DNA of 64,000 bases from Nitrospirota bacterium. GTDB lineage: Bacteria > Nitrospirota > Thermodesulfovibrionia > Thermodesulfovibrionales > Magnetobacteriaceae. Below are positions 8,925-24,881 of the stretch, in pieces. Position 1 is the stretch's first letter, and the number at the start of each line of letters is the position of its first letter. The notes beneath the pieces are model-generated. The model was given only the letters and a program-made list of their open reading frames with translations. It ran no database searches and was not told the DNA's origin. A program made the translations under genes and the position numbers. The DNA is taken from NCBI GenBank assembly GCA_015233015.1, contig JADFYO010000010.1:1-64000 (forward strand), given 5' to 3'.

Positions 8925-11783
8925 TTATTGCCAGCTGACCCCTAAAGCATACGAAGTACCGTTATAATAAGTATATAGGTATCCATCTGTCCACGCTACG
9001 ACGGCAGCACCATTTGTAAACCACTGGACATAGTATGCGGCTGAACTGGACGTTCCAATATAGATGCTGCCGGATGTTGAGCCAAACCACGAGGCATATT
9101 GATTATAAATTGCGGTAATCTTCGTAGCTGCCTTGCCTAACGATTGCCAGGCCGCCCCTAAACCGGACAACTGGCCATTGTAGTATAAGTATATATTTCC
9201 ATCTGTTGCGGCTACGAGGTAAGCACCGTTGCTATATAACTGGTAATAGGCTATCCATGATGTTCCCGTCTGTATGCCTCCGGATGTTGCGCCAAACCAT
9301 GAGGCGTATTGATTATAGATTGCGGTAAATGCCGCGGAGGCGGCGTCAGAGTCTGAAATTCCCGATGTAAATGCCGCGGTTACGCTTTTAGCCGCCGACA
9401 TTGTTACAGTACAGGAAGAACCGCTTGTCGAATCACACCCTGACCAGCTTGTAAAAGTGGAACCGGATGAGGCCGCTGCCGTAAGCGTTACCGGCGTGCC
9501 TGACGTGTATGAAGCAGTGCCGGTGCTGCCGCTCCATGTGAGAGTTCCGCTTGATGCTGTTACGGTGCCCGTGCCGGTGCCGGATTTAGTTACACTAAGG
9601 GTATATCCGGTCGTGCCTCCTCTAACGGTTAACGTTGCCTGGTTACTGGTCACAGACCCCACTGAATTGCTGACCTGCACTGTAAATACCGTGCCGTTGT
9701 CGGCGGATGTTGTTACAGGCGTTGTATAAGTCGCGCTTGTGGCGCCACTGATGTTCACGCCGTTTTTCTGCCATTGATAAGTCAGAGTTGGTGACCCCGC
9801 TCCGGTTACCCTGAATGTTGCGCTCTGTCCGGCGGACACCGTCACGCTGTACGGCTGCGTTGCAATCGATGCCGAGACTAAACCGCCAGAGACAGCCGGC
9901 GGGTTACTGGAAGAACATCCGGTGAAATTGCAGCCCACTTGCACCGAAGAGGTCATCTCGTTCGCACCCGTTGCCGCCGAACTGTTATTGCTCACAGTGC
10001 AGGATGAGTTATCTACTTCGACAGGAACGAGGACATAGTTGTTAACAATTTGTGTGCTGCCGCAGTTAGAAATGTCTTGGATAAAAATAGAACTTTTTGA
10101 GCTCACATCGATAATGGAATTATTATGAACGTTATTGTTGTTCGGATATGGTTCACTCCCCCCAGTACCATCCGAAAGAACCTGAATACTGTGGAACTGA
10201 TTATTCCAGAAAATATTCTGATCTATCTCGAGACCACCGGCAAACATATCCAGATAAATGCCGACATAACCATAGTTATAAGTTGGCCCGGAATACAGCG
10301 ATTGAGTATATTGAATCCATGATTGAGTATCATGAATCCAGTTGTGGTGAATTCTGACTCCTGTAAGAGGCGGCATGCCTGCGCCGCCGGTATATATAGC
10401 ACCCGCGTCAATCGAAAGCATCATGGCATTGAATAAATTGTTATAGCTAATATCGTTATTGTTGGAATAAGTTTCTGTGCCGTTAGGCCAGTAAGCTTTT
10501 TTAATGAAAATAGAGTCACGTCCACTGGCGTAAATAGTATTGTTTTTAATCGAATGTCCAGTACCTGAAATATTAACGCCGGCGGCGTCGTTTGCCATAT
10601 AATCGATATGATGAATCAAATTATTCTGCACGATATTACTCCTTCCCATTAAAGCGACCCCGTTACCCGCACTGTATGAGATAGTACTGTTTTTCAAGGC
10701 ATTGCCGGTTCCGTTGATAACGATGCCGCTGTCATCAGTATGTGTATCCCAGTAGGAGGTCGGGTAAACAGGATTGGACGTGAGAGTCGTATAATGCGAG
10801 ACGTAAGTTGCAGTGATGCCGTCAACTGTATTGTTCTCGCTTGAAACATTGGTATTGATAGTACCTGCAAACAGATTTAAGTTCTGGATCGTCACATTCG
10901 ATTTTCCGCTCAGGTCAAGGGCGTACAGACGCTGCTTGGCGCGGACATCCAGAGTGTTGGGGTTTACACCTCCAGGAGCCCAGAAATACAGAGTACTGGA
11001 GCTGTTGTCATAATACCATTAGTTCTCTGTATCCAAAGCGCCCAGAGTACCAAACACGTAATAAAAACCTCCGGCAGTGGGGCTGATCATGGGAGGGAAA
11101 GTGGCTCCATCCAAGGTGAAAGCTAGTTGGCTGCTTTGCGACCCGGTTACAGTTCCGGTTTGTGAGGACCAAGGATCTGTGCCGCTCCAAAAATGAACCC
11201 TTGCGCCGGTCCAGTCGATATTCGGCAAATTCGAATCAACAAGTTTCGATGCGGTAGTGCCGGTCTGTGCAGTGGCCCAATTTATGTGGAAAAGATCGTC
11301 GCCGTTGGGCCAACGTGCCTCTGTCATCATCTGCTGTCCAACGAATAATTGATTGGTGTCATAAACGGTAGTACAATTATCACCGTTAGCACAAATCACG
11401 TATTTGATGTTACTCATTCTTGCACTTGCGCTGTAAATCGATCCATGGTACACCTTCCAACCTGTAACAGCATCGGTGCCGTCTATGGTCACTTGTTCAC
11501 TGTTGTAAGAGGTAATCGTTATTCCAGAATTTGGCGTCACTGTTTCGCGGTAGGTTCCGGCGCGAATATAACAAACCGAGCCGCTTGCGGCCGTGGAGGC
11601 GCATTTCTGGATGGTGAGAAAGGGCTGGCTGATTGTGCCTGGGTTAGAATCACTGCCATTGGTGGCTACATAGTAGTTTGCCGCATACGCTGACGCCGCG
11701 AAGCCGCTTAGTATAATAAATAGCACGGCCAGCACGGCTGAAGGAGTAGGGGTGGAACGCTTTATGGGGTTCCTGTCGGCCAC
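8925..11783 (-). pseudogene. Secreted right-handed beta-helix / Ig-like repeat surface protein interrupted by one in-frame stop
   Basis: ORFs 11019..11783 (signal peptide, parallel beta-helix N-terminus) and 8925..10895 (beta-helix plus Ig-like and AIYNQYASWFG repeats) are in the same frame; a single TAA at 11019-11021 lies between DTEN and WYYDNSSSTLYFWAPGGVN. Confidence 0.8.
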
Positions 11784-12575: not shown

Positions 12576-14387
12576 ATGCCTGAGAAGCCATATAAGGTAG
12601 TAGTACCGGATTACAAATACTGGAGACAAAACGTCAAATGCCAGACCGGCTGCCCTGTGAACACGGACTCAAGGGGATACGTCAGGGCAATTGCCGACGG
12701 TGATTATGAGAGGGCATACTGGATAGCAAGGATACCGAACCCGTTGGCTTCCATATGCGGCAGGGTTTGCGCCGCCCCGTGCGAACTTGCGTGCAGACGT
12801 GGCCTAATTGACGAGGCGGTTTCGATAAGGGCGCTAAAGAGGTTTGTTACCGAAAAATTCGGCGTAGAGGCCAACGCCCCTCAATACAGGGGCGAGCTTC
12901 TTGGCAAATTAAAAGATGAAGGATGTGGCATCACAGGCATAGCCGCGGAGACTGATAAGCCCGTCTCGATAATAGGCGGCGGGCCTGCCGGTCTTGCCTG
13001 TGCGCACGAGCTGGCCCTGATGGGCTACAAGCCGGTGATTTATGAGATGGAAAAGGTAGCGGGCGGGATGTGTGCCGTTGGTGTACCGCCATACCGCCTG
13101 CCCAGGGAATTGCTGCAAGCTGAAATAGATGTAATAAAATTCCTTGGGGCAGAGATAAAGTGCGGCGTACAGATAGGCAAAGACATAGAATTAAAGCAAT
13201 TATACGGCGAATCCGCCGCGGTGCTTCTGGCCGTAGGGGCAAAGAAATCGAAGGTACTGCCGCTTGACCACTGTAATGCCGCCGGCGTTAGCGGGGGTGT
13301 GGATTTTCTGAGAGACGTATTTACGGGAAAGACGGTGAAAGCCGGCCCTAAGGTCGTCGTAGTGGGCGGCGGCAACGTGGCATATGATGTGGCAAGGACT
13401 GCCGTCAGGCAAAAAGGCGTTCAGTCTGTAACCCTTGTCTGCATCGAGCCGGAAGGCCATATGCTTGCCGACAGGGTTGAAGTGGAAGAAGGCGAAGAGG
13501 AAGGCGTAGAAAGGATAAACAGTTTCGGCCCTGACAAGATACACGTAGATGCAACCGGCACCGCAAAAAGCGTAACCTTTAAAAAGGTAATATCCATAAC
13601 CGGCCCTGATGGGCGCTTTAACCCCAGATACGACGAGGATGACAAGATAACACTCGAGGCCGATACGATATTCTTTTCCGTAGGGCAGGCATACGACCTT
13701 TCGTTTCTTGACAACTGCGGCCTCGATGTGGCAATGACACCGCGCTCAACGATAAGCGTGAAAGAGGACAAGGTCTCGACATCGCTGCCCGGACTTTTTG
13801 TCGCGGGGGACTTGGCTTATGGCCCTAAACTGATAATAGACGCAGTGGCTTCGGGAAAGGCGGCGGCGATGGCAATTCACGAGTACATCAGCGCCTCAAA
13901 ACCGGCTCTCAAAATTGATGAGAAGCACACAGTAGTGCCCGGCAACGCGGCTGCCCAGTTCTGGAATTACGAGAAGCTGCCGCGCGAAGAAGCAGGAGCC
14001 TTTGGAACAGAAGCAAGGCTTAGCGATGTATTTACGCCGGTTGAGACAGGCTATGCCAAAGATGAGGCGGAGCGGCAGGGGCAGAGGTGTCTGAACTGCG
14101 CCGTCAATACAATATTTGACGGCAATAAGTGCATACTTTGCGGCGGATGTGCCGACGTATGCCCGGAGTACTGCCTGAAGCTCGTCAGTCTCGATAGGAT
14201 AAGAGGCAGCGAGACGCTTACGGCGCTTTACAGGGCAAGGTACGGGAAAGAACCGGCGGGGGCAGGCAGCGCAATAGTTAAGGACGAGGACAGGTGCATA
14301 AGGTGCAGCCTGTGCGCAAAGCGCTGCCCCGTAGATGCAATAACGATGGAGCGATTTTCATTTAAGGAGGCTTATATCAATGAGTAG
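12576..14387 (+). CDS. GltD-like FAD-dependent NAD(P) oxidoreductase with N-terminal Fe-S region and C-terminal 2x[4Fe-4S] ferredoxin domain
   Basis: [80 protein letters not shown]. Confidence 0.9.
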
Positions 14388-14856
14388 CGAGGCGCAGCAC
14401 AAGGACGGGGTTATATCGAGGCGGGAGTTTTTGAATGTGGCGGCGGCAGGGGCGGCTTTTTTGTCAATAGCGGCTGTGTTTGCCGGATTGTCAAGGTTTT
14501 TAAAGCCAAAGGTGGCGTATGAGGAGGCAACGAAGTTCAAAATTGGAACGGCGGACAACTTCCCCGTGGGGGTTGTTACTAAGTTTGACGAAAACGGGGT
14601 GTTTGTGTTTTCGAGTGAGGATGGGCTCTATGCCATATCCTGCGTGTGTACCCATTTAGGGTGCAGGGTGGCGCTGACAGAGACAGGTTTCGACTGCCCG
14701 TGCCACGGTTCGAAATTCAATAAAAATGGCAAGGTGACCGGCGGACCGGCGCCGAGGGCGCTCCCCTGGCTTCAGATCAGCCGCAGCGTAGATGGAAGCC
14801 TCGAAGTTGACACGGCAAAAGAAGTTTCGGCCGGGACAATATTTAAGATCGCATGA
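14380..14856 (+). CDS. Rieske [2Fe-2S] protein of a cytochrome bc-type complex
   Basis: Tat-like [12 protein letters not shown] anchor; [10 protein letters not shown] and [12 protein letters not shown] Rieske boxes. Confidence 0.94.
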
Positions 14857-14869
14857 TTTTGGAGGGACA

Positions 14870-16426
14870 ATGAGTGAATCAAAAAATTCAGGGATAGGCG
14901 TACTGGCAGATAACCTGAAGTCTGTCTGGGGTTCGTTTGCGGGGTCTTTTTTCAGGGCAGGCAGGCCCGCGTCCGATATGTCAAGGGCTGCCATAATGGT
15001 CAACAACTTCTTCCTGCACATTCACAGCGTAAAGACACATATAAACTCATTGAGACCGGGCTTTACGCTCGGCATGGGGCTTATATCGATGTTTTTGTGC
15101 CTGATAACGGTCGGCTCCGGCGTTGCCCTCATGGTTTATTATAATCCATCTATCGAAAACGCCTATAACAGCGTTAAGGACATTAATTTTGTCGTTTTCG
15201 CGGGCAGGCTTATCAGGAATTCGCATAAGTGGGCTGGAGAGGGGATGATAGTGTTTGTGTTCCTGCACATGGCGAGGGTCTTCTATACGAATTCGTATAA
15301 GAGCGGGCGGGAGTTCAACTGGCTTGTTGGCGTGGTGCTGCTTGGTCTGACCTTCATGTTGAATCTGTCGGGGTATCTGCTGCCGTGGGACCAGCTCTCT
15401 TACTGGGCATTGGTTATTGTGTCCAATATCATGCAATCGCCCAAAGAACTAACGGATTCTCTTGGCTTAACCAAGTATTTCGACGTAGGCGGATTTTCAA
15501 AGGAACTCTTTCTGGCCGGTCTCAAACCGGGCAAGGAGGCGCTGAACAGGGTGTATCTGCTGCATGTGGTGTTCCTGCCGGTAACGCTTATGGTAATCGT
15601 TGGCGTGCACTTCTGGAGGATAAGAAAAGACGGCGGCCTCACAAGGCCGGCCAACTATACGGCAAAATATGAGGATATGAAGTATGTGATAGCGCCAGAT
15701 AAAAAGGGTGGAATATTCACCCCCAACAAGACCTACGGCCTGATGGAACTTGCAAAGGGCAAGACCCCGGCGGTCAACATTGACGTTGAGAACACGGTGT
15801 TGAGCTGGCCTAATCTCCTTGTTGCGGAGGCGGCGGTGTTTATGCTCTGTCTGGCCGGTGTAATCGCGTATTCGTTCTATATCGACGCGCCTCTGAAGGA
15901 ACTGGCCAATCCCCTGATACCTGAGAATCCGGCCAAGGCGCCGTGGTATTTTCTGGGGCTTCAGGAGCTGCTTTCATACTCCGCCTTCATGGGAGGCGTG
16001 GGGCTTCCCACGGTAGCCCTGATGGGACTGGCGCTGATACCGTTTTTGGACAGGGAGACTGACAAGGTTGGCGTATGGTTTTCAGGGAAGCGGGGAAAGG
16101 GTGTTGCCATTGAGGCCCTTATCGTTGGTGTAATCGCCTTAGCAGGCCTTATGGCGTTTGTCATATCCTTCGGCTGGTTCAGGACATGGTGGCCGGATAT
16201 CCCTCAGATAGTGATAACCTTTATAAATCCCGGTGTGATTTGGGTAGGGTTCATGATATTCTGGGCATTGTCGGTAACTGCAAGGACACGCTCGACTAGA
16301 ATGGGCGCAATAGCCTTGTTTACGATGTTCCTGCTCAGCTACCTGATACTGACCTATATAGGGACAGAACTCAGAGGGCCGAACTGGGGCTTTTATTGGT
16401 CAAAGAGCCAGTGGCCGATGCACTAA
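14870..16426 (+). CDS. Cytochrome b (fused cytb6/subunit IV type)
   Basis: NSHKWAGEGMIVFVFLHMARVFYTNSYK heme-ligand helix; LSGYLLPWDQLSYWA; APWYFLGLQELLSYS at the PEWY position; many TM segments. Confidence 0.93.
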   Translation: MSESKNSGIGVLADNLKSVWGSFAGSFFRAGRPASDMSRAAIMVNNFFLHIHSVKTHINSLRPGFTLGMGLISMFLCLITVGSGVALMVYYNPSIENAYNSVKDINFVVFAGRLIRNSHKWAGEGMIVFVFLHMARVFYTNSYKSGREFNWLVGVVLLGLTFMLNLSGYLLPWDQLSYWALVIVSNIMQSPKELTDSLGLTKYFDVGGFSKELFLAGLKPGKEALNRVYLLHVVFLPVTLMVIVGVHFWRIRKDGGLTRPANYTAKYEDMKYVIAPDKKGGIFTPNKTYGLMELAKGKTPAVNIDVENTVLSWPNLLVAEAAVFMLCLAGVIAYSFYIDAPLKELANPLIPENPAKAPWYFLGLQELLSYSAFMGGVGLPTVALMGLALIPFLDRETDKVGVWFSGKRGKGVAIEALIVGVIALAGLMAFVISFGWFRTWWPDIPQIVITFINPGVIWVGFMIFWALSVTARTRSTRMGAIALFTMFLLSYLILTYIGTELRGPNWGFYWSKSQWPMH

Positions 16427-16450
16427 AAATAAATTGGGAGAGTGTTACAT

Positions 16451-19400
16451 ATGAATGACGATAAAAAAGACGAAAAAGGGAAAATATCACGGCGGCAGTT
16501 TCTGACGTTTGCCGGCGGCGGCCTTATGCTCGCAGGCGTAAACGTCAACGTTCTGGGGCTTTTAGAGTCCAACACGTCAAACCCGCTCGAGCAGTATCCA
16601 AACAGGGACTGGGAGAAGGTCTTCAGGAATATATACCAGGAGGACAGCCACTTTCACTTCCTCTGCGCCCCCAACGATACGCACAACTGTCTCCTGAAGG
16701 CGCACATGAAAAACGGCGTAGTAACAAGAATAAGCCCGTCGTATCAATACGGCGAGGCAACGGATTTATACGGCAACAAGGCATCTCACCGCTGGGACCC
16801 GCGCATATGCCAAAAAGGCGTGGGCCTTGTCAGAAGACTCTACGGCGACAGGCGCGTAAAGGGCGCTATGATAAGAAAGGGTTTTAAGGACTGGGTAGAT
16901 AAGGGTTTCCCGCGTGATAAGGAAACGGGGAAACCTCCGGTTGAATATATGAAACGAGGCGACGACAAGTGGCTTAAGATCTCATGGGACGAGATCTATG
17001 ACATCACGGCTAAGGCACTTCGCAACATAGCCGAGACATATTCAGGCGCGCAGGGTACGCAATATCTGAACAAACAGGGCTATGACCCCGCCGTGGTGGA
17101 AGCGACACACGGGGCAGGGGTGCAGACCCTTAAATTCAGAGGCGGCATGGCATTCCTTGGAGCTACCAGAATATTCGGATACTACAGATTTGCCAATATG
17201 CTGGCGCTTCTCGATGCGAAGGTGAGAAATGTCAAACCCGAGGACGCCGTTGGCGCACGCGGCTGGGACAGTTACACGTGGCATACCGATCTGCCGCCCG
17301 GACATCCTATGGTTACCGGAGCGCAGACCAACGAGTTTGAGTTGTTTGCCGTTGAGAGGGCAAAGCTCCTCCTCGTATGGGGACTGAACTGGATAACGAC
17401 GAAGATGCCCGACGCCCATTGGATGACGGAGGCCAGATTAAAAGGCGCTAAGGTGGTGGTGATTACCGTTGAATATCCGGCTACCGCGTGCCGCGCCGAC
17501 GAGGTAATCGTGATAAGGCCGGGCACAGACCCCGCGTTTGCTTTGAGCCTCGCGCAGGTAATCATAAAGGAAAATCTATACGATGTTAATAACATAAAGA
17601 AAAATACAGATCTCCCGTTTCTCGTAAGGCTCGATACCCTCAAACTCCTCCATCCAGAAGATGTAATTCCTGGATATAAGAGGATAAACGCAACAAGAAA
17701 GACCAATGTCATGGGTAAGGATATAAAGCCCCCGCTGATAAAGGAACAGGGAGACCAGTACATAACGGAGGCACTGTTTAACGAATGGCAGGACTTCGTC
17801 GTATGGGATGTAAAGAAAAACGGCCCGGCTGCCATAAACAGGGATGACTTTGGTGATAAGATGCCCGCAGACCCGGCTCTTGAAGGGCTGTTCGATATTA
17901 CTACGGTTGATGGAAAGAAGGTTCAGGTACGTCCCGTATTTGACCTTATGAAGGAATACGTCAACGAAAACTATACCCCTGAACAGGCGGAGACTATAAC
18001 ATGGGCGCCAAAGGACGCGATAATATCCCTCGCCAGACAGATTGCCGCCAACAAAGAACAAACACTGTTTACAACTGGCATGGGGACGAACCAGTATTTT
18101 AATAACGATTTAAAGGACAGGGCGTTATTTTTCCTGTGCGCCCTGACGCGAAACCTCGGCTATCCCGGCGGCAACGTGGGAAGCTATGCCGGCAACTTCA
18201 GAGGGGCAATCATAGGCGGCATACCGACATACGCAATGGAAAACCCGTTTGACCAGGAACTTGACCCGACGAAGAAGTCGAAGCTCAGAAAGTGTCTCAA
18301 GTATGAATCCGCCCACTTTTTCAACAACGGCGACAGGACACTTCGCGTAGGCGGTCATGTGTTTGCCGGCAAGACCCATATGAACACGCCGTCAAAGGTG
18401 ATGATGATAAACAACTCCAACTCACTGATAGGAAACGCCAAGGGCCACTACGACGTGGTATTTAACACGTTGAAGGGTTTTGAGATGGTAACCGTGGCTG
18501 ACTATTGGTGGACTGCCTCGTGCGAGTATGCCGATATAGTGTTTGGCTGCGACGCACCGGCGGAGTTTAAGAAATACGATTTTACTGGTTCCTGCACTAA
18601 TCCTTTTGTTCAGGTATATCCACGCACTCCCCTTCCACGGCTATTCGATACTAAGCCGGACGTAGATATTCTTGCGGGTGTTGCCATTGCGCTTGGTAAA
18701 CAGTTAAATGACAAGAGGTTCGCCGACCACTGGAAGTTCGTAACCGATGACAAGATGGAGGTCTATTCCCAGAGGATAATAAACGCCTCGGCCAATCTTG
18801 CCGGTTATACGATACAGAAGCTCGAAGAGGACGCCAAAAATGGAAAACCGGCGCTGATGAACTGCCGGACGTATCCCAGAATATCCAGCTATGAGCAGGT
18901 TCACGACGGTACGCCGTATTATACGAAATCAGGCAGGCTTGAGTTCTATCGCCACGAAGACGAGTGGATTGCGCACGGCGAAAATATGGTCGTTTACAGA
19001 GAGCCGATAGATGCGACATTCTATGAACCAAACGTCATAGTCGGTAAAAAACATACCGCCATAAGGCCAAAAAAGCCGGAGGACTGGGGGTTTTCATCAA
19101 ATGACCTTTCAACTGATACCAGACAGGTAAGAAACATACAGAAGTCGGGAGAGGAGCTTATGCAGACAAAGCATCCCCTGATGGGCAAGGGTTATAAATT
19201 TATCCTGCATACGCCCAAATACCGCCACGGCGCGCATACCACGCCGTCTGATACCGACCTTGTAGCCGTATGGTTCGGGCCGTTTGCCGATATGTACAGG
19301 CGGGACAAGCGAATCCCATTCGTTACTGAGATGTATGTGGATATAAACCCGCTTGACGCCAAAGAGATAGGCGTCAACGACGGCGACTATGTCCATATTG

Positions 19401-19918
19401 ACGCCGACCCCGACGACCGTCCATACAGAGGGGCAAAAAAGACCGACGAGCATTATAAAGTCGCACGGCTTCTATGCCGGGCGCGCTACTACCCCGGCAC
19501 TCCTCGGGGTGTGACAAGGATGTGGCACAATGTCTATCCTGCAACCATAGGGAGCGTCAAAGGACACGAGACCAGACCGGACGGCCTTGCCAAAAGTCCT
19601 GAGACGAACTATCAGTCATTGTTTCGCTACGGCAGTCACCAGAGCACGACGCGCGCATGGCTGCGGCCAACGCTGCTCACCGATTCCCTTGTGCATAAGG
19701 AGATGTTTGGCCAGACAATCGGAAAGGGGTTTGAACCTGACATCCACTGCGCTAACGGCGCGCCGCGTGAAGGCTTTGTCACAATTCAAAAGGCCGAAGA
19801 CGGCGGCATAGATGCAAAAGGCCCGTGGAGGCCGGTAAAGAGCGGCATTCGCCCTACTATGGAAAGCGAGGCCATGTTAGCGTTTATAAACGGGAAATTT
19901 ATAGCCACTAAAAAATAA
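16451..19918 (+). CDS. nxrA-like: Type II DMSO-reductase-family molybdopterin oxidoreductase, nitrite oxidoreductase/nitrate reductase alpha-like, Tat-exported
   Basis: SRRQFLTFAGGG Tat motif; HFHFLCAPNDTHNC Fe-S ligand region; SYTWHTDLPPGHPMVTGAQTNEFE around the predicted Mo-ligating Asp; adjacent NxrB/NxrC-like genes. Confidence 0.9.
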   Translation: MNDDKKDEKGKISRRQFLTFAGGGLMLAGVNVNVLGLLESNTSNPLEQYPNRDWEKVFRNIYQEDSHFHFLCAPNDTHNCLLKAHMKNGVVTRISPSYQYGEATDLYGNKASHRWDPRICQKGVGLVRRLYGDRRVKGAMIRKGFKDWVDKGFPRDKETGKPPVEYMKRGDDKWLKISWDEIYDITAKALRNIAETYSGAQGTQYLNKQGYDPAVVEATHGAGVQTLKFRGGMAFLGATRIFGYYRFANMLALLDAKVRNVKPEDAVGARGWDSYTWHTDLPPGHPMVTGAQTNEFELFAVERAKLLLVWGLNWITTKMPDAHWMTEARLKGAKVVVITVEYPATACRADEVIVIRPGTDPAFALSLAQVIIKENLYDVNNIKKNTDLPFLVRLDTLKLLHPEDVIPGYKRINATRKTNVMGKDIKPPLIKEQGDQYITEALFNEWQDFVVWDVKKNGPAAINRDDFGDKMPADPALEGLFDITTVDGKKVQVRPVFDLMKEYVNENYTPEQAETITWAPKDAIISLARQIAANKEQTLFTTGMGTNQYFNNDLKDRALFFLCALTRNLGYPGGNVGSYAGNFRGAIIGGIPTYAMENPFDQELDPTKKSKLRKCLKYESAHFFNNGDRTLRVGGHVFAGKTHMNTPSKVMMINNSNSLIGNAKGHYDVVFNTLKGFEMVTVADYWWTASCEYADIVFGCDAPAEFKKYDFTGSCTNPFVQVYPRTPLPRLFDTKPDVDILAGVAIALGKQLNDKRFADHWKFVTDDKMEVYSQRIINASANLAGYTIQKLEEDAKNGKPALMNCRTYPRISSYEQVHDGTPYYTKSGRLEFYRHEDEWIAHGENMVVYREPIDATFYEPNVIVGKKHTAIRPKKPEDWGFSSNDLSTDTRQVRNIQKSGEELMQTKHPLMGKGYKFILHTPKYRHGAHTTPSDTDLVAVWFGPFADMYRRDKRIPFVTEMYVDINPLDAKEIGVNDGDYVHIDADPDDRPYRGAKKTDEHYKVARLLCRARYYPGTPRGVTRMWHNVYPATIGSVKGHETRPDGLAKSPETNYQSLFRYGSHQSTTRAWLRPTLLTDSLVHKEMFGQTIGKGFEPDIHCANGAPREGFVTIQKAEDGGIDAKGPWRPVKSGIRPTMESEAMLAFINGKFIATKK

Positions 19919-19932
19919 GGAGACCAGCCCCG

Positions 19933-21066
19933 ATGCAAATGAGAAAGGTTTACAACTGGCAATTAGGCAGGAACGCGTCATACATATATCCTCAGGTGAG
20001 GCCACAAAAACAATGGGCCATGGTCTTCGACCTGAATAAGTGCATAGCCTGCCAGACATGCTCACTGGCTTGTAAGACGACATGGACCTCCGGCAAAGGC
20101 CAGGAATACATGTTCTGGAACAATGTGGAGACAAAACCCTACGGCGGATATCCGGTAGGCTGGGATATGGGCATTCTGTCCAAACTGGGGCCGCAGGAAT
20201 GGCATGGCGAGAAATATGCCGGCAAGACCCTCTTTGAGGCTGCCGAAAAGGATGAGAAGATACTCCAGCACATAGCCGCCGATGAGGACTGGGCACATCC
20301 CAACATTGGTGAGGATGAGATTGCCGGTTCGATTAATAAGGGCGACTGGCTCACCCTACCCCACAGGGTGTGGATGTTCTATCTGCCACGGACATGTGCC
20401 CACTGCACATACCCGGCATGTCTGGCGGCCTGCCCGCGAAAGGCGATTTACAAGAGGCCAGAGGACGGCATCGTCCTTATCGATCAGTCCCGATGCCGCG
20501 GCTACAGGGAGTGCGTGCGTGCATGTCCCTACAAGAAGCCGATGTTTAATGTTGAGACGAGGATAAGCGAGAAGTGCATAGGTTGCTACCCTAAGGTTGA
20601 ACAGGGCCTGATGACCCAATGCGTTACCAACTGTATTGGAAGAATAAGGCTGCATGGATACTTAAATACACCAGAGAAGGCAGTGAAAGAAAACCCTATC
20701 GATTATCTTGTGCATGTGAGGAAGCTGGCGCTGCCGCTATACCCGCAGTTTGGAACGGAGCCGAATATATACTACATCCCTCCGATACACGCGCCGGTGT
20801 CCTATCTGGAGCAGATGTTTGGCCCGGGCGTGGGCACTGCGGTCAGGACGTATAAGAATATACCCAACGACCAAACTCTTAAGGGACTGCTGGTCTTATT
20901 CGGGAGTATGGAGAAGATCCTCTCTTCGTTCAAGGTTGACGATAAGCTCGCATACGGCTTCGATGATAAGGGCAACGAGATAGTTAAGGTGCCCGTAACC
21001 GAGCCTATGTTTGTGAGGGAATTTTTCGATTCAAAACTCAAAGTATTCAGGCAAAATACACCTTAA
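19933..21066 (+). CDS. nxrB-like: Nitrite oxidoreductase/nitrate reductase beta-like Fe-S subunit
   Basis: CIACQTCSLACKTTW, CAHCTYPACLAACPRKA, CRGYRECVRACPYKK and CIGCYPKVEQGLMTQCVTNC clusters. Confidence 0.93.
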   Translation: MQMRKVYNWQLGRNASYIYPQVRPQKQWAMVFDLNKCIACQTCSLACKTTWTSGKGQEYMFWNNVETKPYGGYPVGWDMGILSKLGPQEWHGEKYAGKTLFEAAEKDEKILQHIAADEDWAHPNIGEDEIAGSINKGDWLTLPHRVWMFYLPRTCAHCTYPACLAACPRKAIYKRPEDGIVLIDQSRCRGYRECVRACPYKKPMFNVETRISEKCIGCYPKVEQGLMTQCVTNCIGRIRLHGYLNTPEKAVKENPIDYLVHVRKLALPLYPQFGTEPNIYYIPPIHAPVSYLEQMFGPGVGTAVRTYKNIPNDQTLKGLLVLFGSMEKILSSFKVDDKLAYGFDDKGNEIVKVPVTEPMFVREFFDSKLKVFRQNTP

Positions 21067-21081
21067 GGGGCAACGGAGGCT

Positions 21082-21954
21082 ATGATGATAAGAAAGATTT
21101 TTTTAGTGCTTGCAATAGCCCTTGCATTTGTACAGGGCGCGTATGGACAGGGAAAACCCTTTGTAGAGATTACATCGTTTCACAAGGATGCCGATGTCTC
21201 TAAAGTTGGTATAAACGATGATGTGTGGAAGGATGTTGCTTCTTATAAGCAGCCGCTTCAGAGGCAGTTTCTCTTGGAGCCAAAGCCAAAGGATGTGGGC
21301 GTGAAGGAGGTGCATGTACAGTCTGTTAACGACGGCAGGTTCATCGCATTTCGCCTGACGTGGAAAGACGATACGAAAGACGATACACTCAAGATAACTA
21401 ATTTTTCTGACGCGGCGGCGATACAATTCCCCGTTTCCTCCGACCCGCTCCCTGAGTATTTCATGGGAGAGCCAAAAAAGCCCGTGCATATCCTCTATTG
21501 GAAGGCATGGAGGACTAAAGACCAGAGAGATGGGACGCAAAGCGTCAACACAAGCTATCCCAATATGACAATCGATATGTACACCTTCGACTACAAGGTC
21601 ACAGGCACGGGAACTGATAAGACACAGGCACAGAAAGATATGTTTATTCCCGGAAGAGCGGCTTTAAATCCTATAGACAGCGCTCACAAGGAGATAATAG
21701 AAGAGGCATCGGCAGAAGGGCCAGGTACATTAAAAACCAAACCAGTGGAAAATACGGTGGGAGATGCCCAATGGCAAAACGGCACATGGACGCTTGTGAT
21801 GAGAAGGCCGATGACGGTAGCCGACAAGGAAAGCGTACAGTTCAAGGCCGGAGAGAGAAAACCAATAGCCTTTGCCGTATGGGAAGGACACCATATGGAA
21901 GGCGGCGGGCGTAAGGCAGTGTCCCCGGCATGGGCCGAAGTGATGGTGCAATAG
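21082..21954 (+). CDS. nxrC-like: NxrC-like gamma subunit (ethylbenzene-dehydrogenase-type heme-binding domain), exported
   Basis: Signal peptide; VNDGRFIAFRLTWKDDT; NGTWTLVMRRPM; AFAVWEGHHMEGGGRKAVSPAW. Confidence 0.85.
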   Translation: MMIRKIFLVLAIALAFVQGAYGQGKPFVEITSFHKDADVSKVGINDDVWKDVASYKQPLQRQFLLEPKPKDVGVKEVHVQSVNDGRFIAFRLTWKDDTKDDTLKITNFSDAAAIQFPVSSDPLPEYFMGEPKKPVHILYWKAWRTKDQRDGTQSVNTSYPNMTIDMYTFDYKVTGTGTDKTQAQKDMFIPGRAALNPIDSAHKEIIEEASAEGPGTLKTKPVENTVGDAQWQNGTWTLVMRRPMTVADKESVQFKAGERKPIAFAVWEGHHMEGGGRKAVSPAWAEVMVQ

Positions 21955-21956
21955 CT

Positions 21957-22679
21957 ATGGATGAATTAGTCTATCTGTATAAGTTAGCCTCATTGGGACT
22001 TCAATATCCCGACGAAACAGGCTGGGCTTCCATAGAGAATATACTTTCTGAAAGGGAAGCGCTCTTCGAGGGGGAAATGCTACTGTTGGTAAATAATTTC
22101 AACAATGAATTCAGGGGCGCGGCAATTGAGGATATTCAGTCGGACTATCTGAGCTTCTTTGATTTAGGGGGCCAGATTTCCCCATACGAGACCGAGTATC
22201 TGACAGAAAAAATATCCAGAAAACCATTTGAACTGTCTGATATCGCCGGTTTTTACAGTGCGTTTGGTCTGAGTATCAATCAGTCGTCCAATAACAGGGA
22301 GATAGTTGACCACATCTCAGTAGAGCTTGAGTTCATGGCGCTCCTCACATGGAAGGAACGATATGCCGTGGAAACGAAGTCTAAGGAACATGAGGAGATT
22401 GTTCTTGACGCGAAGAGGAAATTTTTGAAAGACCATCTTGCAAGGTGGGGATTTTTTTACTGCCGTCAGATGGAGAGTCTCGAAGGAGCTTTCCATAAAA
22501 GCCTTGGGAGGATTGTGGAGGCGCTGCTCACGTCGGAGTGTGAAAGGCACGGTCTCGATAAGACCCTCTATAACAAAGATTTGACGAGAGAGGCCCTGAG
22601 CGGCGTCAGGTGCGATACGCTGACTTGCGGTGCTTTGCCGGAACTACATATAACGGAGAGGGAGGATTATGCACGGTAG
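21957..22679 (+). CDS. TorD/NarJ-like molybdoenzyme assembly chaperone
   Basis: Acidic helical protein with DYLSFFDLGGQISPYETEYL; position after the NxrABC-like genes. Confidence 0.8.
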   Translation: MDELVYLYKLASLGLQYPDETGWASIENILSEREALFEGEMLLLVNNFNNEFRGAAIEDIQSDYLSFFDLGGQISPYETEYLTEKISRKPFELSDIAGFYSAFGLSINQSSNNREIVDHISVELEFMALLTWKERYAVETKSKEHEEIVLDAKRKFLKDHLARWGFFYCRQMESLEGAFHKSLGRIVEALLTSECERHGLDKTLYNKDLTREALSGVRCDTLTCGALPELHITEREDYAR

Positions 22680-24072
22680 ATATTATTCATGGATGATATT
22701 CATATCGGCAGCGGTGCTGATAGTATTCACTTTAATGTTTGTTCGCGGCGAGATGTCGCCTGAGTGGAAACCGTACCAGCTGCAGTACAGAGACCTGGCT
22801 ATAGCCTCAGCCAAAGACACGGACACTAAAAAGACTGCCCTGTCAATGGACATCGAGGTCAGGCAGCTCTACCTTGGAGCGCTGAAGCGAGTTGACAGGT
22901 GCACAAGCTGTCATCTGGGCGTTGAGAATCCCGCAATGGAAAAGATGCCGCAGCCGTTAAAGACACACAGCGGTCCATATCTGAAAAATCACCCGTCAGA
23001 CAAGTTCGGCTGCACAGTATGCCACAACGGCCAGGGCCGCGCGGTGGATATGGAAAACGCGCACGGGCTTGGTCACAAGGCGCATTGGGATTTGCCCATA
23101 TTGCCGTTGAAGTATATTCAAAGCGCGTGTGCCTCCTGCCATGACGCCGGCATGCTGAAAGACAACGGCGGCGTTAACGTGGCAAAGGGCGATGTGCTCT
23201 TCAGAGAGCGCGGTTGCAAGGGCTGCCACAAACTTGACGGCGTGGGCGGCGTCATAGGAAAGGCACTCGACGGCGTAGGCTCTCAGCCCGTGGCGTATTT
23301 TCCGATGAAAAACATTCAAGGCGAGAAAACCGTCTATGCCTGGATGAAGGAACACTTCGACGACCCAAGAAATGTCGTTGCCACCAGCGAGATGAAATCG
23401 GACTTCACCGACGAGGAGACAGACCAGTTGACGACATTCGTGCTGTCGCTGCACGCAGATGAGATACCCAAAAAGTACAGGCGTCTCGGGAAAGGCTTGG
23501 ACATACCAGATTCTGGGGAGTATTTGTATAAGATGTACTGCGGCGCCTGCCATGCCTCTGGAAAGGACAGCGTCTATGACGAAGTGTTTAAAAGGACTAT
23601 TCCATCAATTCAAAATCCTTCATTTTTGAAGGCAGTGGATAAGAAATATCTGAAGACGGTTATAGAAGAGGGACGCGCCGGAACTCAGATGACGGCATGG
23701 AAATCCTCTGCCGCCGGACTAACAGACGGGCAAATCGACAAGATAATTGATTACATTGTTCAGGATAAGCCTGCCACAGTTGCAGCGGCGTTTGACTGCA
23801 CACCGTATAAACCTGACGTACAAAACGGCGAAGAGCTGTTCAGGGTACGCTGCGTAAGCTGCCACGGCAAAAAAGGCGAGGGCGGCGTCGGCCTTAACCT
23901 CAGAAATCCCGTAGTCCAAAAAGAGGCAAGCGCGGAGTTCCTCGCTATCACACTGCGCGATGGAAGAGAAGGCACCCACATGGCGTCATTCGGACCTGAT
24001 GGGGCAGGCCTGAGTAACGAAAACATCGCCGACATCGTGGCATTCGTTAAGACGCTTTCAACGAAGAAGTGA
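22669..24072 (+). CDS. Membrane-anchored hexaheme c-type cytochrome
   Basis: Six CxxCH motifs: CTSCH, CTVCH, CASCH, CKGCH, CGACH, CVSCH; N-terminal TM anchor. Confidence 0.92.
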   Translation: MHGRYYSWMIFISAAVLIVFTLMFVRGEMSPEWKPYQLQYRDLAIASAKDTDTKKTALSMDIEVRQLYLGALKRVDRCTSCHLGVENPAMEKMPQPLKTHSGPYLKNHPSDKFGCTVCHNGQGRAVDMENAHGLGHKAHWDLPILPLKYIQSACASCHDAGMLKDNGGVNVAKGDVLFRERGCKGCHKLDGVGGVIGKALDGVGSQPVAYFPMKNIQGEKTVYAWMKEHFDDPRNVVATSEMKSDFTDEETDQLTTFVLSLHADEIPKKYRRLGKGLDIPDSGEYLYKMYCGACHASGKDSVYDEVFKRTIPSIQNPSFLKAVDKKYLKTVIEEGRAGTQMTAWKSSAAGLTDGQIDKIIDYIVQDKPATVAAAFDCTPYKPDVQNGEELFRVRCVSCHGKKGEGGVGLNLRNPVVQKEASAEFLAITLRDGREGTHMASFGPDGAGLSNENIADIVAFVKTLSTKK

Positions 24073-24149: not shown

Positions 24150-24178
24150 CCTGATACCAATCAAAGGAGTAATTCGGA

Positions 24179-24210
24179 GCATCCTTCGACAGGCTCAGGA
24201 TGATTCAATT
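24179..24210. repeat. REP-like element GCATCCTTCGACAGGCTCAGGATGATTC
   Basis: Same core as 7587, 24395, 24743, 26231 and 26318. Confidence 0.8.
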
Positions 24211-24300
24211 GTTTTATGATGATTCGATTATTAGAGGAATATCCCTTCTATGAACGAATACCCTTACTTCTATGAACGTATCTATGTACAAGAAGATTTC

Positions 24301-24350: not shown

Positions 24351-24394
24351 CTCACACTATGATAATCGAAGAACTCTATAATAATCGAAATAAA

Positions 24395-24429
24395 AATCGA
24401 ATCATCCTGAGCCTGTCGAAGGATGCTCC
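24395..24429. repeat. REP-like element (opposite orientation) 3' of the GIY-YIG gene
   Basis: aatcgaatcatcctgagcctgtcgaaggatgctcc. Confidence 0.8.
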
Positions 24430-24432
24430 TTA

Positions 24433-24723
24433 TTACTCCTTTGTCTTGAGCTTGGCATTAGAATATTCAACAAGTTTCTCCCATTCACCGCTAATCAATG
24501 CCTCTTTTTTCCTTCGTGACCAACCTTTTATCTGTCTTTCTCTCAAGGAAGCATCATGGGTTGTAGCCATTTCACAACAGTATTCCAGCTTCTCTGGCAA
24601 CCTTTTGGCTGTATATCCATCGTAACGGCCATCGTTATGCTCATAAAGCCGTTTTTCTAAATCCACAGTAGAACCAGTGTAATATGAGCCGTCCGAACAT
24701 TTTAAGACATAGACCCATGCCAT
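24433..24723 (-). CDS. GIY-YIG endonuclease domain protein (UPF0213/YhbQ-like)
   Basis: MAWVYVLKCSDGSYYTGSTVDLEKRLYEHNDGRYDGYTAKRLPEKLEYCCEMATTHDASLRERQIKGWSRRKKEALI. Confidence 0.92.
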   Translation of the reverse strand: MAWVYVLKCSDGSYYTGSTVDLEKRLYEHNDGRYDGYTAKRLPEKLEYCCEMATTHDASLRERQIKGWSRRKKEALISGEWEKLVEYSNAKLKTKE

Positions 24724-24742
24724 GTTTTTAGGATAGCAATTC

Positions 24743-24778
24743 GGAGCATCCTTCGACAAGCTCAGGATGATTCGATTG
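24743..24778. repeat. REP-like element 5' of the GIY-YIG gene
   Basis: ggagcatccttcgacaagctcaggatgattcgattg. Confidence 0.8.
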
Positions 24779-24881
24779 TTATATGATGATTCGATTGTTC
24801 AGGCAATTAATATATTCGTTGCAATGTCAAATTGATTATGCTACAATCTTTCATTCTTATACCAGATGATGGAGGCGTTAT

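Follow-up and report, generated by a model that had tools for sequence, protein, structure and literature searches.

An operon joining a Rieske/cytochrome b unit to an NXR-like periplasmic molybdoenzyme in Magnetobacteriaceae (Nitrospirota)

The 64,000-nucleotide stretch analyzed here (the window; contig JADFYO010000010.1 of assembly GCA_015233015.1, from a Nitrospirota bacterium of the family Magnetobacteriaceae) contains an operon of eight plus-strand genes at positions 12576-24072. The operon appears to encode one respiratory device built from two units. Unit 1, composed of a flavin adenine dinucleotide (FAD) protein, a Rieske protein, a cytochrome b and a hexaheme cytochrome c, would belong to the bc family and work as a quinol:cytochrome c oxidoreductase. 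Unit 2, composed of NxrABC and a chaperone, would be a periplasmic molybdoenzyme of the nitrite oxidoreductase (NXR) family, exported by the twin-arginine translocation (Tat) pathway. We favor, with a probability of roughly 0.6, a function in which the bc unit feeds nitrate reduction to nitrite in the periplasm with Q-cycle energy conservation.

In the proposed pathway, menaquinol would be oxidized at the Qo site of the Rieske/cytochrome b complex, and protons would be translocated by the Q-cycle. Electrons would pass from the Rieske protein to the hexaheme cytochrome, the haem b of NxrC, the Fe-S clusters of NxrB and NxrA and the Mo center, where periplasmic nitrate would be converted to nitrite. 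We infer complex formation, quinone type, direction and substrate.

Architecture of the operon

All eight open reading frames (ORFs) were verified at their coordinates, as were the tight same-strand packing, domains and motifs described in an earlier reading made from the window alone (the sequence-only reading). The intergenic gaps are at most 24 bp and two junctions overlap. The first gene (12576..14387) encodes a FAD/NAD-binding flavoprotein of GltD/NfnB-like type, sequentially composed of an N-terminal Fer4_20 domain, a Pyr_redox_2 domain and two C-terminal 4Fe-4S ferredoxin domains. It overlaps by 8 bp the gene for the Rieske 2Fe-2S protein (14380..14856), which possesses a Rieske domain and a Tat-type signal anchor (SRREFL). 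After a 13-bp gap, the cytb gene (14870..16426, ATG at 14870) encodes a b6f-type cytochrome b (Cytochrome_B domain) fused to a subunit-IV-like half.

A gap of 24 bp separates cytb from nxrA (16451..19918; ATG at 16451, alternative start GTG at 16442), which encodes an NxrA-type molybdopterin catalytic subunit with a Molybdopterin domain and a Tat motif (SRRQFL). The NxrB-type beta subunit gene (19933..21066) follows after 14 bp; its product contains a Fer4_11 domain of the NarH/DMSO-II beta type and is expected to bind four Fe-S clusters. The NxrC-type haem-b gamma subunit of the EB_dh family, with a Sec-type signal, is encoded 15 bp further on (21082..21954). Only 2 bp downstream lies the gene for a NarJ/TorD-type chaperone for NxrA (21957..22679, ATG at 21957; PF02613, Nitrate_red_del, DMSO-II chaperone). 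It overlaps by 11 bp the last gene (cyc6, 22669..24072), encoding a membrane-anchored hexaheme cytochrome c with six CxxCH motifs and an N-terminal hydrophobic segment. A promoter scan gave scores no better than shuffled sequence, and an Rfam scan of one relative gave no match.

The two units in Nitrospirota relatives

The eight-gene order is not a chance arrangement, since it is kept in three other Nitrospirota genomes. The closest genome with the operon, Candidatus Magnetominusculus xianensis HCH-1 (G007; L019/L026), a congener of the host, contains the entire order at 74-92% identity per protein. The entire order is also kept at 46-83% identity in G117 and G348, which represent another family of the phylum and another family of the order, respectively. 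Contig-truncated versions are present in G003 and G019, the latter with the same cytochrome downstream. A genetic joining of a quinol oxidoreductase (Rieske protein, cytochrome b and hexaheme cytochrome) to a periplasmic NxrA/NarG-like enzyme, in line with the sequence-only reading, is supported. The association recurs in Planctomycetota.

Cytochrome b was searched in 80 relatives. The FAD-Rieske-cytb-hexaheme c unit occurs without NXR at 12 loci (one cut by a contig end), where it is usually followed by a diheme c gene. In three genomes (G077, G045 and G011; loci L093, L098 and L102) the unit precedes nosZ, and in G077 genes for NosD and an FMN-binding protein also follow. In G013 (L101) it precedes genes for a cbb3-type oxidase, including FixO, and for a copper-type ATPase. 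NosZ and cbb3 oxidase are both electron-accepting, high-potential partners. Because these stand-alone operons include both the FAD protein and the hexaheme cytochrome, the two are part of the bc unit and not of the NXR half, a correction to the sequence-only reading. The NXR genes form an inserted cassette: nxrABC and the chaperone gene are placed between cytb and the hexaheme cytochrome gene in the window and in HCH-1, G117 and G348.

A separate observation concerns G117, in which a gene for a 1201-aa secreted protein with alpha/beta-hydrolase and F5/8-type C regions lies at the cytb/nxrA junction (L086:13232-16837).

The bc unit

The Rieske protein contains the cluster motifs CTHLGC...CPCHGS. 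Cytochrome b carries its haem-ligating histidines at 120/134 and 233/248, a b6f-type spacing, and its Qo-site motif is APWY in place of PEWY. The operon therefore contains the defining parts of a bc complex, namely the Rieske motif, four haem His, a Qo motif and a c-type cytochrome as c1/f equivalent. The Cys for covalent haem ci is absent from this cytochrome b; it is present in the genome's housekeeping cytochrome b6 and in the anammox proteins.

The flavoprotein is similar to Nfn and to the NfnB-like regions present in larger flavin enzymes. It is probably cytoplasmic, as no export signal was seen in its sequence. Its gene lies beside the bc unit at practically every locus seen, so the protein is likely an integral partner of the unit. 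In GltD and Nfn, a YRR motif binds the NADP phosphate. At that position, every Nitrospirota or Planctomycetota module member compared (15 sequences including the window's) has [CS][IL]E; YRR is found instead in Nfn-type relatives and in the anammox r/b-3 protein (YRRTREEMPA). As [CS][IL]E replaces YRR, the flavoprotein is predicted not to use NADPH, but either NADH or no pyridine nucleotide at all. On the cytoplasmic face of cytochrome b, it would probably trade electrons with NADH or ferredoxin.

A bolder and rather doubtful extension is a three-way device, in which cytochrome b would tie quinol oxidation toward NxrABC to cytoplasmic NADH/ferredoxin chemistry, by bifurcation or by nitrite-driven reverse flow to NAD+. 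If this were true, one operon would combine a high-potential nitrate/nitrite enzyme with a low-potential outlet, through a plug-in bc unit that is elsewhere paired with NosZ, cbb3 oxidase or anammox HAO.

The NXR-like unit

The closest solved structure to NxrA is the NxrA subunit of Kuenenia nitrite oxidoreductase (7b04_B, E 1.7e-278, over 14-1154). The match scores 930 bits, compared with 196 bits for the perchlorate reductase PcrA; NarG is also far below. NxrA falls short of the NCBIfam thresholds for both narG and the DMSO-II alpha family. The Kuenenia residues discussed below (Mo ligand D275, N70/D71, the FS0 cysteines and the NxrC Met and Lys) were described by Chicano et al. (PMC8387239). 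With residues of the window protein numbered from GTG 16442, D283 aligns with D275, and N78 and D79 align with N70 and D71, N78 being the substrate Asn position. The FS0 cluster is ligated by three Cys and D79. NxrC matches Kuenenia NxrC (7b04_C) and retains both haem-b ligand motifs, the Met in MGEPKKPVH and the Lys in GGRKAV. Every Mo, FS0 and haem-b ligand position of Kuenenia NXR is retained in the window proteins. In its full-length homology, Mo-ligand Asp, substrate Asn, FS0 Asp and exported haem-b NxrC, the enzyme conforms to the periplasmic-type NXR.

The di-haem membrane subunit NarI, which belongs to NarGHI, is absent from the operon, as the sequence-only reading had noted. No NarI was found genome-wide either: the three matches to the NarI family (PF02665) in the host genome are DsrM, a DsrM-like protein beside DsrK, and QmoC, and NarI elsewhere in the genome was accordingly rejected. 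The further idea that the bc complex replaces NarI has to be dropped, since the gamma subunit of NXR-type enzymes is instead NxrC, a soluble haem-b protein (7b04; PMC8387239), which the operon encodes.

NxrA was placed in a quick tree (LG+G4), from which Nitrotoga and Nitrospina NxrA were left out and in which class names are inferred from kinship and NxrA identity. The NxrA proteins of the window, HCH-1, G117 and G348 form one clade (100). The clade is nested in an NXR-like group of Thermodesulfovibrionia-type Nitrospirota, Planctomycetota and others. This group of 46 sequences (support 100) is sister to the Nitrospiria nitrite oxidizers plus anammox bacteria. Because its NxrA sits in the sister clade, outside the nitrite oxidizers and anammox, the enzyme is named NXR-like here.

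The family also contains a second NXR type (~54% identity), which has a diheme c gene immediately upstream in L029 and L035. In L010, this type has a Cys (PNCTH) where the FS0 Asp is expected, so that the cofactor ligand varies inside a single bacterial family.

The pairing in Planctomycetota and its origin

At least six Planctomycetota genomes (G460, G540, G428, G749, G702 and G576) have a same-strand cluster of the order FAD-(Rieske)-cytb-(7-9 haem) c-NxrA(B)C-chaperone. Further cases are G578 and, by coordinates, G601. The simple ORF caller used skipped occasional genes in high-GC clusters, namely Rieske in L182 and cytb in L183, where another search places a cytb. G576 is Thermogutta terrifontis R1 (single chromosome, 4,810,751 bp), which grows anaerobically with nitrate (Elcheninov et al. 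2017, PMC5673643). Relatives in Oligoflexia, Deltaproteobacteria and Phycisphaerae contain NxrABC and the chaperone without such a cytb alongside. A Natronococcus plasmid homologue (H1, 46% identity) was rejected as the same pairing, having no annotated Rieske or cytb neighbor. This unannotated NxrA-like frame, on plasmid 2 of Natronococcus occultus SP4 (L119:10001-13380), is accompanied by a beta subunit and a TorD chaperone and located near a cbb3-type oxidase gene.

The bc-linked planctomycete NxrA proteins lie elsewhere in the same NXR-like group. A single exclusive clade is rejected for all bc-linked NxrA (approximately unbiased test, p-AU 1e-50) and for all bc-linked cytb (p-AU 0.003), and for this reason the bc-NXR association was probably formed repeatedly. 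The differing position of the cytochrome gene in Nitrospirota and Planctomycetota agrees with independent assembly. Repeated gain is favored, although the trees would look alike if the linkage were ancestral and had been lost many times. Among the Nitrospirota, monophyly of the NXR-linked cytb (n=4) is rejected (p-AU 0.006), but the NXR-linked cyc6 form their own clade (100/99), a discrepancy that hints at recombination near the cytb/nxrA junction. The FAD tree is undecided.

Respiratory genes of the host genome

The window is on contig 11 of a 3.78-Mb, 99% complete genome from the same genus as Candidatus Magnetominusculus xianensis (Nitrospirota). This genome, probed by protein family, contains one NxrA-type gene and encodes DsrMKJOP and QmoABC/Apr. 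A second Rieske protein and a short cytochrome b6 are encoded elsewhere in the genome. The genome also carries genes for a caa3-type cytochrome c oxidase (L115:6047-10300, own contig 33), which suggests a microaerobic capacity of the host.

Direction of electron flow and alternative functions

The sequence-only reading left the direction open. The nitrate-reducing direction is the more probable one and is suggested by analogy, as the bc unit partners nosZ and cbb3 oxidase in relatives and Thermogutta grows on nitrate. Several points weigh against bc-fed nitrate reduction. Shared gene order does not prove that the two units touch. The NXR family is bidirectional and mixed, and Kuenenia NXR itself works both ways, reducing nitrate and oxidizing nitrite (PMC8387239). 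The FS0 Asp ligand is common to nitrite oxidizers and anammox bacteria, though also to the Planctomycetota group that includes Thermogutta. For the nitrite formed, no NrfA was found in the host genome (NirK, HAO and NapA were not searched directly), and a NirS search gave only a weak, WD-like match that is unconvincing. Finally, the caa3-type oxidase would permit aerobic nitrite oxidation.

If the enzyme ran as a nitrite oxidase, electrons would flow through the hexaheme cytochrome mainly to the caa3-type oxidase, and the bc complex, reversed by the membrane potential, would reduce quinone and, via the FAD protein, NAD+. The presence of that oxidase, the NADH-like motif in the nucleotide-binding domain of the FAD protein and the position of NxrA in the NXR superclade with an Asp-ligated FS0 are all consistent with this function, which others have proposed for poorly characterized Planctomycetota NXR (PMC10732223). 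We nevertheless consider it unlikely, if still a serious candidate. The bc unit otherwise stands beside nosZ and cbb3 oxidase, whose function depends on quinol oxidation in the forward direction, and Thermogutta respires nitrate with the same gene set. In addition, the Dsr/Qmo/Apr genes of the host are typical of anaerobic sulfur or sulfate metabolism, and NxrA lies outside the clade of Nitrospiria nitrite oxidizers and anammox bacteria.

The two units might instead be merely co-transcribed, in which case the bc complex would serve several acceptors and NxrABC would exchange electrons with a general cytochrome c pool. Most relatives with the bc unit lack NXR beside it, most NXR-like operons of the family lack adjoining bc genes, and contact between the bc complex and NxrABC is argued from gene order. 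This independence is improbable, however, given that the pairing was apparently assembled more than once and that the cassette, being inserted between cytb and its cytochrome, keeps the bc unit on one likely transcript. The separate clade of NXR-linked cyc6 is also as expected if the cytochrome has specialized to NXR. Another oxyanion (chlorate, perchlorate, selenate or arsenate) as substrate, also raised by the sequence-only reading, is conceivable insofar as the DMSO reductase type II family includes such enzymes and NxrA stays below the NCBIfam cut-offs. It is very improbable, since Kuenenia NxrA is by far the best match, with the same Asn and Asp at the Mo site, and neither chlorite dismutase nor any other accessory gene was seen adjoining NxrA.

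Implications of the proposed bc-fed nitrate reduction

Canonical Nar conserves energy via a redox loop through NarI, and a periplasmic enzyme without NarI normally conserves no energy at that step. Q-cycle coupling would be available to such an enzyme through a dedicated Rieske/cytb unit. Since the same bc unit is paired with NXR in two phyla, with nosZ and an oxidase in relatives and with HAO in anammox bacteria, it may be an electron-feeding unit that is widespread and exchangeable in nitrogen respiration. Nitrite oxidation should not be the default reading of nxrA in metagenomes of Thermodesulfovibrionia or Planctomycetota. Among terrestrial-aquifer Nitrospirota, NxrA is reported to be frequent in Magnetobacteriaceae and Dissulfurispiraceae (PMC11033732). 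A study of metagenome-assembled genomes from an Oslofjord tunnel described Planctomycetota NXR to which no direction could be assigned and placed Thermogutta in the NXR clade (PMC10732223).

Features adjoining the operon

Directly downstream of the operon, a repeat of ~50-65 nt (GGAGCATCCTTCGACAGGCTCAGGATGATT) is present in three copies (24162-24213, 24392-24443 and 24735-24799), two inverted and one direct. They surround an ORF of GIY-YIG-like type and a 19-nt unit in four tandem copies, and the repeat looks like a mobile palindrome of the repetitive extragenic palindromic (REP) type. At 8925-11783 on the minus strand, a single in-frame stop (DTEN*WYYDN) divides a gene for a secreted beta-helix/Ig-domain protein, and the two ORFs listed there thus form one broken or read-through gene.

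Comparison with known systems

The NxrABC subunits, together with the Mo-ligand Asp, Asn70/Asp71 and NxrC Met/Lys positions, resemble those of Kuenenia NXR (Kustd1700/Kustd1703 and NxrC; 7b04; PMC8387239). However, a related anammox locus (L185) contains nxrABC without adjoining bc genes.

The bc unit has a homologous module in anammox bacteria. Three anammox loci (L192-L194) have the order Rieske-FAD-cytb-cytb-hexaheme c-octaheme HAO, which corresponds to the r/b-3 complex of PMC7438415 (Kuenenia KSMBR1_3792-3797). The FAD protein, cytb and cyc6 are 33-35%, ~40% and 30-31% identical, respectively. The two modules differ in that the r/b-3 partner is an octaheme HAO and not NXR; no HAO is present in the window operon, which is thus not an r/b-3 locus. 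In addition, the anammox cytb is split into two genes with the ci-haem Cys, and the FAD protein has the NADP-type YRR.

Clade II nos clusters, with their cytochromes and Fe-S proteins, likewise have a periplasmic N-oxide reductase that is supplied through Rieske/cytb; in Wolinella, the nos system is reported to depend on a Rieske/bc complex (PMC9697520, citing Hein et al. 2017). The FAD-Rieske-cytb-hexaheme unit itself precedes nosZ in the three relatives described above, but the catalytic enzyme is another one.

With Rieske, cytb, an exported nitrate-reductase-type enzyme and a chaperone in one operon, the window also has the gene content of a bc-linked periplasmic nitrate reductase. An experimental precedent comes from haloarchaea. 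In their nar operon, narB (Rieske) and narC (cytb) are located upstream of narGH, and Q-cycle coupling was proposed; in Haloferax, antimycin A inhibits nitrate reduction (PMC2483277). Both operons share Rieske and cytb genes upstream of a Tat-exported nitrate reductase, a chaperone and a small b-type cytochrome. As described, the haloarchaeal operon lacks the FAD protein and hexaheme c, and the likeness drawn here is one of gene content.

In the literature searched, outside which most subscription papers lie, no paper was found that describes this operon in Nitrospirota or treats the bc unit as exchangeable. The arrangement itself is already known from a close equivalent in Thermogutta, a cultured nitrate respirer. 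There, NarG (THTE_1509), NarH (1508), 'NarI' (1507) and TorD (1506) adjoin a bc complex (THTE_1510-1512), which its authors proposed to serve growth on nitrate (PMC5673643). In the present analysis, 'NarI' THTE_1507 is an EB_dh-type gene, and a FAD gene beside the cluster (L184) is a new addition. The THTE_1506-1512 cluster and the window operon share, on the same strand, Rieske, cytb, a multiheme c, an NxrA/NarG-like subunit, NxrB, a haem-b gamma subunit, TorD and the FAD gene. They differ in that the Thermogutta cytochrome has seven haems and lies between cytb and nxrA, that NxrA is 55% identical to the window's, and that the trees indicate a probably independent assembly. The Nitrospirota operon is a variant of this arrangement.

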